From Candidatus Daviesbacteria bacterium (lineage in GTDB: Bacteria > Patescibacteriota > Microgenomatia > Daviesbacterales > UBA10151), in NCBI GenBank assembly GCA_030699125.1, contig JAUYKM010000014.1:1-55736 (forward strand): DNA of 55,736 nt. Direction: 5' to 3'. Positions 2,931-52,078 of the stretch are shown piece after piece. Each line of letters begins with the position of its first letter. Within the stretch, counting starts at the first letter, position 1. The notes beneath the pieces were generated by a model, which did not search any database, was not told the DNA's origin, and worked only from the letters and a program-made list of their open reading frames with translations. A program made the position numbers and the translations under genes.

Positions 2931-3791
2931 TTAAATGAGTGCCCAAATTATACCTAATCTCCAGGATAATTCTGATATAAGTAAAAATGAAGATTCGCCA
3001 ATAGGTTTTTTTATAAACTGAAGTGTAAGCCAAATAGGAAATGAAAAAAAGTTTTTAAGTGATATACTTTCAAACATAAAATGTTTTTTTTCAAAACCGC
3101 TATTTTTGTATTTCTTATATATTTTTGTAGTCCAGAATCCTTTGTTAAAGTTTGATAGGATCGTCTTTATGAAGGAACTTTTGTGGTTGTGTCCTACTTT
3201 TAATAAGGGGATAAATCTTATCTTTGTTTCCTTTTTCAGCCGAAGGTAGAGATCTAGGTCTTCAAAATTTTCTAAATTTGCATCAAACATTATTTTTTTA
3301 ATTGTTGAGGATTTAATTGCAAAATTTTTGGTGTCGATGTGATTTATGTATCTGCCTTCAGTGGTTCTTTTTAGAAATTCTTCATTTGCTTTTTGGATAT
3401 TTCTGGTCCAGTAATTTTTTATCAGGTCTTTTTCTGATCCAATTACAGCGACCTCATTTCCGTATATTATTGGCGCTGTAAGTTTTTGGAGCCAATTTTT
3501 TGGAACAATACAATCTGCGTCAGTCATGGTAATAATTTTTCCAGTCGCAGCTTTAATACCGGCATTTCTTGCAGCTCCTCTGGATATATATTCTTCAAAA
3601 ATATATTTAATATTTTTCTGTTTAAAACTTTTTATTATCTCCTTGGTTCTGTCATTTGAATTATTATTAACAATAATCACTTCATAATTTTTATAAGCTT
3701 GGTCCAAAACTGACTCTAGGCATTGTCTTAACGTCTTTTCTCCATTATATACCGGAATTATTACTGAAACTTTTTTTTTTGAATTGTTCAT
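2931..3791 (-). CDS. Family 2 glycosyltransferase
   Basis: A 286-residue protein beginning KKVSVIIPVYNGEKTLRQCL, a textbook GT2 start, with a nucleotide-sugar binding segment VNNNSNDRT and a metal-binding DAD in MTDADCIVP at about residue 93. The C-terminus is hydrophobic, probably membrane-attached. The start codon overlaps the end of the upstream methyltransferase gene by 4 nt, so the two are translationally coupled. Donor and acceptor sugars are unknown. Confidence 0.88.
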   Translation of the reverse strand: MNNSKKKVSVIIPVYNGEKTLRQCLESVLDQAYKNYEVIIVNNNSNDRTKEIIKSFKQKNIKYIFEEYISRGAARNAGIKAATGKIITMTDADCIVPKNWLQKLTAPIIYGNEVAVIGSEKDLIKNYWTRNIQKANEEFLKRTTEGRYINHIDTKNFAIKSSTIKKIMFDANLENFEDLDLYLRLKKETKIRFIPLLKVGHNHKSSFIKTILSNFNKGFWTTKIYKKYKNSGFEKKHFMFESISLKNFFSFPIWLTLQFIKKPIGESSFLLISELSWRLGIIWALI

Positions 3792-49351: not shown

Positions 49352-50194
49352 ATGTCAATGAACTATGAAAGAGCTTCACAAGGGATTTTAGAAGCAGACG
49401 CAGTAAAATATGCTGAAGGTATAAGGGAAATGAATGCTCTTGCTAATTCTTTACAGAGGGAGGGTAAATTACCAGTAGAATTTTCAGAGCCTGTTATTGA
49501 AACACCGACAGCTGTAGTAACTCCTGCGCTACAAGACAGACAACTTAGAGATGCTCTTCGTCCTTTTGTACAAGAATACAAAGATGCAAAAGTCCATACT
49601 CCGGAATTAGTTGATCATACTTGGCAAAATATGTGGGGAGAAATAGGAAGAGCTGTTGATTTTAAATATCAAGTCCCATCTTGTGATCGCGCTAGAGAAG
49701 AATTAGCACAGTTAAGAAAAGAGAATAAAGCAGTCTTACTTTTGCCGGATGATATATTTACCCCCGAAGGGTTAGTGAGATTTGGTAGAGCCTTTCCTTT
49801 AATGAGAAGTTGGACTACTGATCCAGAACATGCGGCAAAAATTTCATATGGATCAAACATCGGCGGTTGTATTGATATTGAGATGAGCCTTGATGCTCCT
49901 TATAGAACTTCCAAGGGATACAAACAAAAAGAATTAGTAGATAAAATTGCAGCTGATAAAAGAGCTGGCCAAAGATTACCAACCTACTTTGTTGGTTCGG
50001 AGTTCAGCCAACTTTTAACTGGACACTATTTTGATGAGAATACTTGGTCAAGACTCCCTGAGTCTTTCAGCGAGGGCAGCATGTTGGTTGCTCACTTCCG
50101 CTCAGATGGTAGCGCGGATGTCAACGCCTACTGGCATCCTGAGCTTCGGAGTCCGGACTTGGGTGGGCGTTCTGAGGGAGTAAAAAGAGCTTAA
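49352..50194 (+). CDS. DGR target (variable) protein, C-type-lectin-fold C-terminus expected
   Basis: A 280-residue protein without signal peptide or TM helix. The last ~45 residues, from PESFSEGSML (residue 236) to GGRSEG, are encoded by the variable repeat. Targets of this class display hypervariable residues on a C-type-lectin fold (family knowledge); the conserved framework F-S--G-W-P---GGR is visible. The N-terminal 200 residues are helical and not recognised; a Trp-rich part (PELVDHTWQNMWGEIGRA) lies near 85-103. Since it seems cytoplasmic or non-classically exported, its ligand is unclear. Confidence 0.85.
   Translation: MSMNYERASQGILEADAVKYAEGIREMNALANSLQREGKLPVEFSEPVIETPTAVVTPALQDRQLRDALRPFVQEYKDAKVHTPELVDHTWQNMWGEIGRAVDFKYQVPSCDRAREELAQLRKENKAVLLLPDDIFTPEGLVRFGRAFPLMRSWTTDPEHAAKISYGSNIGGCIDIEMSLDAPYRTSKGYKQKELVDKIAADKRAGQRLPTYFVGSEFSQLLTGHYFDENTWSRLPESFSEGSMLVAHFRSDGSADVNAYWHPELRSPDLGGRSEGVKRA
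50057..50177 (+). repeat. DGR variable repeat (VR)
   Basis: This 121-bp segment aligns without gaps to 50497-50617. There are 19 differences, and at all 19 the template copy has A (11 become G, 5 C, 3 T). Thirteen change an amino acid, mostly Asn codons (AAY) turned into Ser, Val, His, Arg, Asp, Ala, Tyr or Leu. Homology ends at 50177; position 50178 (G versus T) is the first non-A mismatch. Confidence 0.97.
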
Positions 50195-50407: not shown

Positions 50408-50424
50408 CCTGAGCTTGTCGAAGG
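50408..50424. repeat. CTTCGAC/CTCAGGG-type repeat, copy 4
   Basis: CCTGAGCTTGTCGAAGG, the reverse complement of the core of the copy at 17710-17728. It lies between the target gene and TR. Confidence 0.7.
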
Positions 50425-50496: not shown

Positions 50497-50617
50497 CCTG
50501 AGTCTTTCAACGAAGGCAGCATGTTGAATGCTAACTTCAACTCAGATGGTAACGCGAATGTCAACAACAACTGGAATCCTGAGAATCAGAATCCGAACTT
50601 GGGTGGACGTTCTGAGG
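50497..50617 (+). repeat. DGR template repeat (TR)
   Basis: The template for mutagenic retrohoming, with 37 adenines in 121 bp. Read in the VR frame it encodes an Asn-packed ladder (ANFNSDGNANVNNNWNPENQ), typical of TRs whose AAY codons are meant to be mutated. Nineteen of its 37 adenines differ in VR. It is on the same strand as the target and the RT. Confidence 0.96.
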
Positions 50618-50632
50618 TAGAGTCTTGTCTCT

Positions 50633-51055
50633 CTATATTGTTTTTAGGGATTTTCTCCACCCTCCAAGCATCCGACCGATCTCTTGGAGGGAAGATTCAA
50701 GCTGTAGATATTTTTTGTTATCTAGTGCTTGGATATCTTTTGCAAGCCTTATTAGGATTTTTAGGAGATCTAAGGAAACAATACTCTTTTCAATTATAGG
50801 CAACTTTCTCTCTTGGGTTAAGTTCCCTGCCATAATAATTAATTCAAATAGTTCCAGAGTGAGATTATCCAGCCTTTGACCCAAGCTGTAGCGGTCTTTT
50901 TTAGGGAAGAGTTTTAAGTACTGATACAATAACTTGTAGAAGTCGTAAATTTTTTGAAATATGGGGATATTAAAATCGTTACCTGTCCTGTCCTGTCCTG
51001 TCCTGTCCTGTCCTGTCCTGTCCTGTCCTGAGCCCTCGCTTGGGTAATTATTCAT
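50633..51055 (-). CDS. avd: DGR accessory protein Avd (four-helix bundle)
   Basis: A 140-residue protein. Residues about 30-140 match Avd proteins: LKLFPKKDRYSLGQRLDNLT, LELFELIIMAG, and SSLQEIGRMLGGWRKSL, a pattern found next to DGR RTs. Avd is a pentameric RNA/RT-binding partner required for mutagenic cDNA synthesis. Here it lies antisense between TR and RT. The N-terminus MNNYPSEGSGQDRTGQDRTG encodes three GQDRT units from the pentanucleotide tract and is not part of the fold; a change of one repeat unit would frameshift the gene. Confidence 0.88.
   Translation of the reverse strand: MNNYPSEGSGQDRTGQDRTGQDRTGNDFNIPIFQKIYDFYKLLYQYLKLFPKKDRYSLGQRLDNLTLELFELIIMAGNLTQERKLPIIEKSIVSLDLLKILIRLAKDIQALDNKKYLQLESSLQEIGRMLGGWRKSLKTI
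50982..51030. repeat. Pentanucleotide repeat CCTGT x 9.8
   Basis: Nine complete CCTGT units and a final CCTG. The tract lies 25 bp inside the avd coding region, between ATG and the folded domain, and 25 bp before the RT start codon. Five is not a multiple of three, so each gain or loss of a unit changes the avd frame. Such tracts are classic substrates for slipped-strand phase variation. Confidence 0.95.
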
Positions 51056-52078
51056 ATGTTGTATTCCCAGCTTATCTCAATTGAACACTTGTTACAAGCC
51101 TGGGAGGAGTTTAAAGTTGGTAAAAGAAACAAATCTGATGTCCAAAACTTTGAAAGAAATCTTGAGAACAGTCTGTTTTCCCTTCACCGCGACTTGAAAG
51201 AGAGAGTTTACCAGCATGCCAGCTATACGGCTTTTAATATTTATGATCCAAAATTCCGCCATATCCATAAAGCTAGAGTTCGAGATAGAATCGTTCATCA
51301 TGCAGTAGTTTCTTTAATTGAGCCTCTTTTTGATAAAACTTTTATCTATGACTCTTATTCTTGTCGGGATAATAAGGGTAGTCATAAAGCAGTTACCAGA
51401 TTGGCCATTTTCATAAGAAAGATCAGCAAAAACTATACTGGGAACTGTTTTGTTTTAAAACTAGACGTAAAGAAGTTTTTTGCCAATGTTAACCAAACTA
51501 TTTTATTTGATTGCATCAAAAAGAGAGTGGAGGATCCGGATCTCCTCTGCTTGATTAAAAATATTCTTGGTAGTTTTTCCAATAATACTGGTATTCCAAT
51601 TGGTAATCTAACTTCACAAATATTTGCCAATATTTATCTAAATGAGCTGGATCAATTTGTAAAGCATGTCCTAAAAGAAAAGTACTACATCCGTTATTGT
51701 GATGATTTTACTATTGTTTCACCCACCAAAAGGCATCTAGAAAACCTAATCCCTCAAATAGAAACCTTTCTTAATGAAAAACTCAGATTATCATTGCACG
51801 AAGGTAAAATAGTTATCAGAAAATATACTCAAGGGGTAGATTTCCTCGGTTATATTATCATGCCCCATGTGATTTTACCTCGGACAAAAACTAGAAGAAG
51901 GGTTTTTAAAAAACTTAGAGAAAAGATTAATAATCTACAAACGGGGATAGTTTCGGAAGGATCATTTAATCAGTCACTGCAATCATACTTAGGATATTTA
52001 GGTCATGCCAATAGTTATAAACTCACTCAAAAACTAAAAAATCAAATTTGGATTTGGGAATCAAAGAGTAATAATTAG
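51056..52078 (+). CDS. DGR reverse transcriptase
   Basis: A 340-residue RT. The first catalytic Asp is in VLKLDVKKFFANV (residue 137). GIPIGNLTSQIFANIYLNEL is the motif-4 form characteristic of DGR and retron-like RTs (SQ instead of the QGxxxSP of group II introns). YIRYCDDF holds the catalytic YCDD (214-217). No maturase or endonuclease domain follows. Its ATG is divergent from avd with no space between (CATATG). A TAATTA box 5 nt before the ATG could be its -10, which would place the -35 inside the repeat tract. Confidence 0.95.
   Translation: MLYSQLISIEHLLQAWEEFKVGKRNKSDVQNFERNLENSLFSLHRDLKERVYQHASYTAFNIYDPKFRHIHKARVRDRIVHHAVVSLIEPLFDKTFIYDSYSCRDNKGSHKAVTRLAIFIRKISKNYTGNCFVLKLDVKKFFANVNQTILFDCIKKRVEDPDLLCLIKNILGSFSNNTGIPIGNLTSQIFANIYLNELDQFVKHVLKEKYYIRYCDDFTIVSPTKRHLENLIPQIETFLNEKLRLSLHEGKIVIRKYTQGVDFLGYIIMPHVILPRTKTRRRVFKKLREKINNLQTGIVSEGSFNQSLQSYLGYLGHANSYKLTQKLKNQIWIWESKSNN

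Follow-up and report, generated by a model that had tools for sequence, protein, structure and literature searches.

A CCTGT repeat tract as a probable slippage switch on avd in a patescibacterial diversity-generating retroelement

A retroelement with a repeat tract at the start of avd

The DNA analysed here, called the window, is a stretch of 55,736 nucleotides (contig JAUYKM010000014.1, assembly GCA_030699125.1) from a Candidatus Daviesbacteria bacterium, in which the avd gene of a diversity-generating retroelement (DGR) carries a tandem repeat close to its start codon. DGRs introduce mutations into a single segment of a gene, and do so at a very high rate. The element comprises a target gene with a variable repeat (VR), a template repeat (TR), avd and a reverse transcriptase (RT) gene (Table 1). 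Of the 124 positions compared between TR and VR, 20 are mismatched, and at 19 of these TR has an adenine. With such adenine-specific differences, a DGR-type RT and Avd all present, the element is, to judge from its sequence, a real DGR. Avd was identified by family NF033474 (86.7 bits for a cut-off of 80, residues 31-135) and by Pfam bAvd (4.4e-21), and a phmmer search of the protein against PDB gave no match. In the AlphaFold2 model, built with 30 aligned Avd sequences, the predicted local distance difference test (pLDDT) score exceeded 90 over most of the helix bundle. The best solved relative of the RT by sequence is 8ub7 (PDB), which we take to be the BPP-1 complex. Phage relatives of the RT reach 39.6% identity, all being below 60% across 169 records, and a scan of viral contigs with the RT gave no relative. 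The avd gene is placed antisense between TR and RT, so that a transcript running from TR to RT would cross it in antisense.

Table 1. Features of the retroelement in the window
Feature	Coordinates	Strand	Remark
Target gene	49352..50194	+	carries VR at its 3′ end
Variable repeat (VR)	50057..50180	+	
Template repeat (TR)	50497..50620	+	
avd open reading frame	50633..51055	-	140 aa; ON (in frame) with the repeat number as assembled
Avd core, NF033474 match	50651..50965	-	four-helix bundle in AlphaFold2 model, residues 29-138
Simple sequence repeat, 9.8 CCTGT units	50982..51030	-	GGACA on avd strand; Tandem Repeats Finder; proposed slippage switch
avd start codon ATG	51053..51055	-	abuts RT start within CATATG
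DGR reverse transcriptase (RT)	51056..52078	+	RVT_1 2e-25; ATG after tract

Between the sole usable avd start codon and the Avd core lies a perfect 49-nt CCTGT array. The initial annotation had placed 9.8 units 25 nt after the start, and Tandem Repeats Finder returned the same array (period 5, 100% match, score 98, the top score within the window), starting 25 nt past the A of the start codon. In 60 dinucleotide shuffles of the window no perfect period-5 array exceeded 18 nt, which was the maximum, and the 20-nt pattern of the tract has no second copy in the 1.127-Mb genome. As annotated, avd is open at the present copy number, with 9 full units, and the tract encodes three GQDRT repeats. When 3 to 15 full units were simulated, avd was open at 3, 6, 9, 12 and 15, and the remaining numbers gave products of 18-53 aa; unit changes other than by multiples of three truncate avd, which bears out the claim that one unit gained or lost shifts the frame. 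The tail encoded by the tract is disordered in the AlphaFold2 model and, because the frame is open only at multiples of three, a gain or loss of three units should be harmless, and one of one or two units fatal. No ATG, GTG or TTG was found in the Avd frame between tract and core in the window, in agreement with the annotated lack of a good start before the first Avd helix. The RT frame is independent of the tract, since the RT ATG follows the tract and the frame is closed by a TGA at 51029-51031. Simple-sequence contingency loci are familiar from the phase-variable surface genes of Haemophilus, Neisseria and Campylobacter, and one of their characteristic features was found here: a tandem repeat that follows the start inside the reading frame and whose unit length is not divisible by three.

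We propose, with a probability of about 0.83, that the tract is a translational phase-variation switch of the contingency-locus type on avd. Replication slippage (slipped-strand) would add or drop CCTGT units, and a change of one or two units would put the Avd core out of frame and leave a short peptide. In OFF cells, lacking Avd (or RT, see below), mutagenic retrohoming from TR to VR should stop and VR should be frozen, until a later slip restored the frame and Avd. In a BPP-1 DGR rebuilt in E. coli, avd nonsense mutations lowered activity to about 1e-9 (PMC12875486). We infer, by analogy, that retrohoming would likewise be lost without Avd in this lineage, and also that tracts slip in living populations and that switching would have a fitness value.

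Repeats at the avd/RT junction of related loci

The survey covered 199 distinct Avd-like cores from the Candidate Phyla Radiation (CPR), plus Bacteroidota as a control. Loci were picked by Avd or RT score, never by repeats, with a core threshold of 60 bits and identical cores counted once. The sample is part of the Avd matches listed, at most 30 loci per search and 100 further regions (20 of these being weak-match controls), other weaker matches being left out. The cores fell into 110 loci with adjacent, divergent avd and RT, nearly all from Patescibacteria (CPR), 39 with the two genes on the same strand, 16 other loci and 34 without RT. A repeat within 110 nt of the Avd core was scored as a junction repeat, and the background consisted of 3775 tiles from the same loci, with A/T runs included (36 of the 61 background matches). 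Owing to kinship among loci, all p-values below are nominal.

A junction repeat with a unit of 1, 2 or 5 nt was present in 64 of the 110 divergent loci, versus 61 of the 3775 tiles (p 1e-73). The units were C (35 loci), AC (16), CT (8), AG (3) and ACAGG (2), none being a multiple of three. All 35 mononucleotide tracts read C on the avd strand, never G. Under strict thresholds the counts were 62/110 for divergent, 1/39 for same-strand and 0/16 for other loci, and 5/34 for those without RT. Looser thresholds gave 6 of 34 in this last class, among which L012, L049 and L167 look like divergent loci that break off before reaching their RT, while the repeats are 7-mers in L086 and L087 and T9 in L053.

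The closest Avd in the family search, among the matches listed, came from another Daviesbacteria genome (G003, its locus being both L008 and L021; 77% identity). There the divergent CATATG layout is the same as in the window, (CA)11 replaces the pentanucleotide, and avd is out of frame; by simulation it would open at 9, 12 or 15 CA units. In Levybacteria, locus L022 carries (AGGAC)7.4, and there too avd is out of frame. Since the window, G003 and L022 form one group in the RT tree (support 99), the repeat unit was replaced while its place was kept.

The window genome also contains five copies of a repetitive extragenic palindrome (REP)-like element, CTTCGACNNGCTCAGG, one of them at 50408-50423 between VR and TR, and the tract flank CTCAGGACAGG is similar to the end of this element. 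Derivation of the tract from it was considered, as the flank reads GGGCTCAGGACAGG, and not retained: L022 has a CCTGT-type unit without that flank, so that a REP origin remains a guess.

One genome, G044, has six avd loci resembling a family of contingency loci (L009, L016, L017, L018, L019 and L020). One is without a repeat and ON, one with (CA)9 is ON, and the four other repeat loci are OFF.

Heptanucleotide arrays 5′ of avd were rejected as frame switches. In the same-strand Bacteroidota DGRs L215, with (AACTGAC)12.7, and L203, with (AACTGAC)3.6, the array lies directly 5′ of the avd ATG; as the ATG follows the array and stops fall inside it, these are not frame switches. They appear intergenic and might affect transcription. 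The arrays 5′ of the avd-like four-helix genes L086 and L087 also appear intergenic.

Reading frame of avd with and without a repeat

In 109 of the 110 divergent loci, L165 being the exception, the avd strand has an ATG whose frame runs open into the junction. Without a repeat, 43 of 46 loci had this ATG in the frame of the core, and the three exceptions (L029, L139, L175) have sub-threshold C7 tracts. With a repeat (n=64), it was in frame in 13 loci and out of frame in 50, one having no ATG (Fisher 6e-15 over 109 loci). The ATG lies at a similar distance from RT in both groups (medians 6 nt with a repeat, 9 nt without), whereas the median distance from ATG to Avd core is 49 nt with a repeat versus 21 nt without, as if the repeat had been inserted between start and core. 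In the stretch from repeat to core the Avd frame was open in 64 of 64 loci, against 33 and 48 for the other two frames. Among the 50 OFF loci, 43 had no ATG, GTG or TTG upstream of the repeat in the core frame before a stop. An internal stop was found in a single one of 114 cores checked (the 110 divergent ones and L012, L049, L157 and L167), at the ON locus L186; on this evidence OFF copies do not resemble genes in decay.

Two pairs of loci with flanks of equal length illustrate the two states. L012 (23 nt, ON) and L013 (27 nt, OFF) differ in tract length only, and L057 (23 nt, ON) and L068 (25 nt with one interruption, OFF) in the tract only. ON and OFF alleles with intact cores, as expected of a contingency locus, were thus found between species only. 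Changes confined to multiples of three units, a pattern that the initial annotation had named as speaking against a switch, are not what relatives display: the window has 9.8 units and L022 7.4, and the pairs above differ by two units and by one unit, respectively.

These data also bear on the idea that the tract is a non-coding spacer that adjusts the distance of promoters or ribosome sites from avd, from RT or from both genes, with Avd starting downstream from an unusual codon. The tract does lie in the region before RT as well, 25 nt from the RT ATG, and the share of repeat loci in frame, 13 of 63, is near the one third expected by chance (slightly below it, p 0.03). A spacer would not require the Avd frame to be open up to the core in every repeat locus, nor an ATG that stays close to RT whether or not a repeat is present and that is nearly always in frame when it is absent. 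Promoter-like matches near the tract numbered 4 versus a shuffle mean of 2.6, none overlapping the tract, and the repeats inside RT described below are certainly coding. Initiation downstream of the tract, also named in the initial annotation as evidence against a switch, finds no in-frame start in the window, although 21 of the 64 repeat loci keep some candidate codon. On these frame and position tests, promoter-spacing and downstream-start models were judged the weaker ones, and we consider the spacer improbable.

A second alternative is that slippage takes place during transcription or translation, and yields some in-frame Avd at any repeat number, that is a low constant level rather than an on/off state. 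Polymerases and ribosomes can slip on runs such as those of C, which make up 35 of the 64 tracts, and the assemblies show avd out of frame in 50 of the 63 loci. Dinucleotide and pentanucleotide tracts, which are unusual substrates for such slippage, nevertheless serve equally (29 of 64), and shifted frames in the window end within 18-53 aa. We hold this explanation to be marginally less probable than the spacer, and retain a switch by replication slippage.

A second repeat position inside RT

Repeats were also found within the RT gene. Over the 108 divergent loci with a chainable RT, 62 had the avd repeat only, 16 an RT repeat only, one had both (with a weak AT5) and 29 had neither. The two positions exclude each other (p 1.5e-6, or 1.2e-6 minus three weak tracts). 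RT-internal repeats are mostly GA on the RT strand, with also G11 and one tetranucleotide, and cluster at profile positions of about 169-193 in divergent and "other" loci. In 9 of the 16 RT-repeat loci, the RT profile match was split into two frames exactly at the repeat. No divergent RT was split without a repeat, all 9 splits being at repeats, and in the whole set 11 of 12 split RTs were split at one (exception L202). A Wolfebacteria same-strand locus, L038 (JAPLZW010000048.1), has (GA)22.5 at 3375-3419 in its RT, around profile position 126, and the frame is split there; this CPR DGR outside the divergent clade is perhaps an independent switch.

In 19 repeat loci (e.g. L193, L132, L176, L015), RT had no ATG, GTG or TTG between the tract and its conserved start. 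In all 19 the RT frame stayed open as far as the tract; either translation of RT begins upstream of the tract in these loci, or its start codon is an unusual one. For 15 of the 19, the closest RT-strand ATG upstream of the tract would come into frame at the tract length that avd also requires. Where RT had its own ATG after the tract, agreement with the avd length was seen in 4 of 22 loci, 15 more having no ATG before the tract (p 1.4e-4); shared ancestry may bias the comparison, as may the conservation of the avd codons that face the RT start. Two tallies of RT-start classes differ slightly, L165 (no avd ATG) being omitted and L153 moved to the no-start class. Read from the sequences, this suggests that in the 19-locus subset one tract would switch avd and RT jointly. 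The window is outside this class, its RT start coming after the tract. A terminator-like stem is present there at the tract end, 5′ of RT (51027-51044, + strand).

Phylogeny and mismatch repair

In the RT tree (FastTree only, 159 rows) all divergent DGRs fell into one clade of 112 rows (support 96). On this tree the switch position changes at least 30 times, and the repeat unit changes 10 times among avd-repeat loci. MutS (PF00488) gave no match in the genome of the window, against 11 of 14 control genomes with one. Of the 43 family genomes searched, 39 had no match either, and tracts should therefore slip freely.

A third alternative is that repeats grow neutrally in a disordered tail that tolerates them, which the lack of a MutS match would also suit, or that the assemblies, many of them metagenomic, contain errors; out-of-frame copies would then be dead genes or artefacts. 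The tail is indeed disordered in the AlphaFold2 model. Against this, repeats are enriched at one site, or at its RT alternative, far above the background tiles, no unit is a multiple of three, internal stops are nearly absent from the cores, and the RT frame of divergent loci breaks only at repeats. It is to our mind the least probable of the three alternatives.

Discussion

The proposal of a phase-variation switch is built on the position of the tract, the dependence of the avd frame on it, the lack of another start in the window and the adenine-specific TR/VR differences. The initial annotation had already read the tract as a slippage switch, and among relatives this gained support from varied repeats recurring at the same place, both frame states, intact OFF cores and the RT alternative. 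Several observations weigh against it. Neither repeat was present in 29 of the 108 divergent loci with a chainable RT. In 7 of the 50 OFF loci an in-frame start exists further upstream, and the in-frame ATG, GTG or TTG codons found from the tract to the first core codons in 21 of 64 repeat loci are mostly GTG or TTG within the core; some OFF calls may accordingly be wrong. Tract lengths may also err, as every locus was taken from an assembly, in many cases a metagenomic one. Lastly, tracts are present in G044, the genome with six Avd matches, although it has retained a MutS-like match.

For the clade as a whole we lean slightly towards a broader reading: hypermutation in this patescibacterial DGR clade would be governed by a fast-evolving slippage switch, at the avd 5′ end or in mid-RT, whose place is kept while its sequence is repeatedly replaced, and which in a subset throws avd and RT together. 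If this is true, there are two tiers of programmed variation, namely random switching of a targeted mutator, and most cells would be OFF with their current VR fixed while an ON minority explores. Surveys of DGRs may also discard frame-split avd or RT genes as broken.

Comparison with known systems

The Bordetella phage BPP-1 DGR (mtd, avd, TR, brt) shares with the window Avd, RT and a TR/VR pair with adenine-specific changes. In BPP-1, avd lies upstream of TR in one avd-TR-brt operon (PMC12875486), whereas the avd of the window, placed between TR and RT, is oriented divergently to RT and contains a slippage tract. With contingency loci (PMC11868660), the common traits are a short repeat, not divisible by three, near the coding 5′ end, and the finding of both frame states. 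These loci switch surface factors; the gene switched in the window would be part of a targeted mutator. In the repeat switches of mutL and mutS (PMC2955026), too, a repeat altered by slippage lies in a gene setting mutability. That mutability is genome-wide and acts via mismatch repair; in the window it is confined to one VR.

The divergent DGRs examined here are probably DGR clade 2 of Roux et al. 2021, described in that article (PMC8144416) as patescibacterial and cell-encoded. Its main text mentions neither Avd nor a frameshift, and it attributes the slower turnover of cellular DGR targets to control of RT activity or to selection, without deciding. A repeat switch on avd or RT would, if true, be an answer to how a large clade restrains its DGRs. 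No description of phase variation of a DGR was found in the literature searched (full text; bioRxiv outside scope), in keeping with the initial annotation, which knew of no DGR with such a switch, and a phase-variable DGR is likely new to the literature. The DiGReF paper (PMC3521204) treats RT frameshifts as inactivation events and contrasts contingency loci and DGRs as routes to diversity. If our proposal is true, a contingency locus controls a DGR, and these two classic routes are joined in one system.
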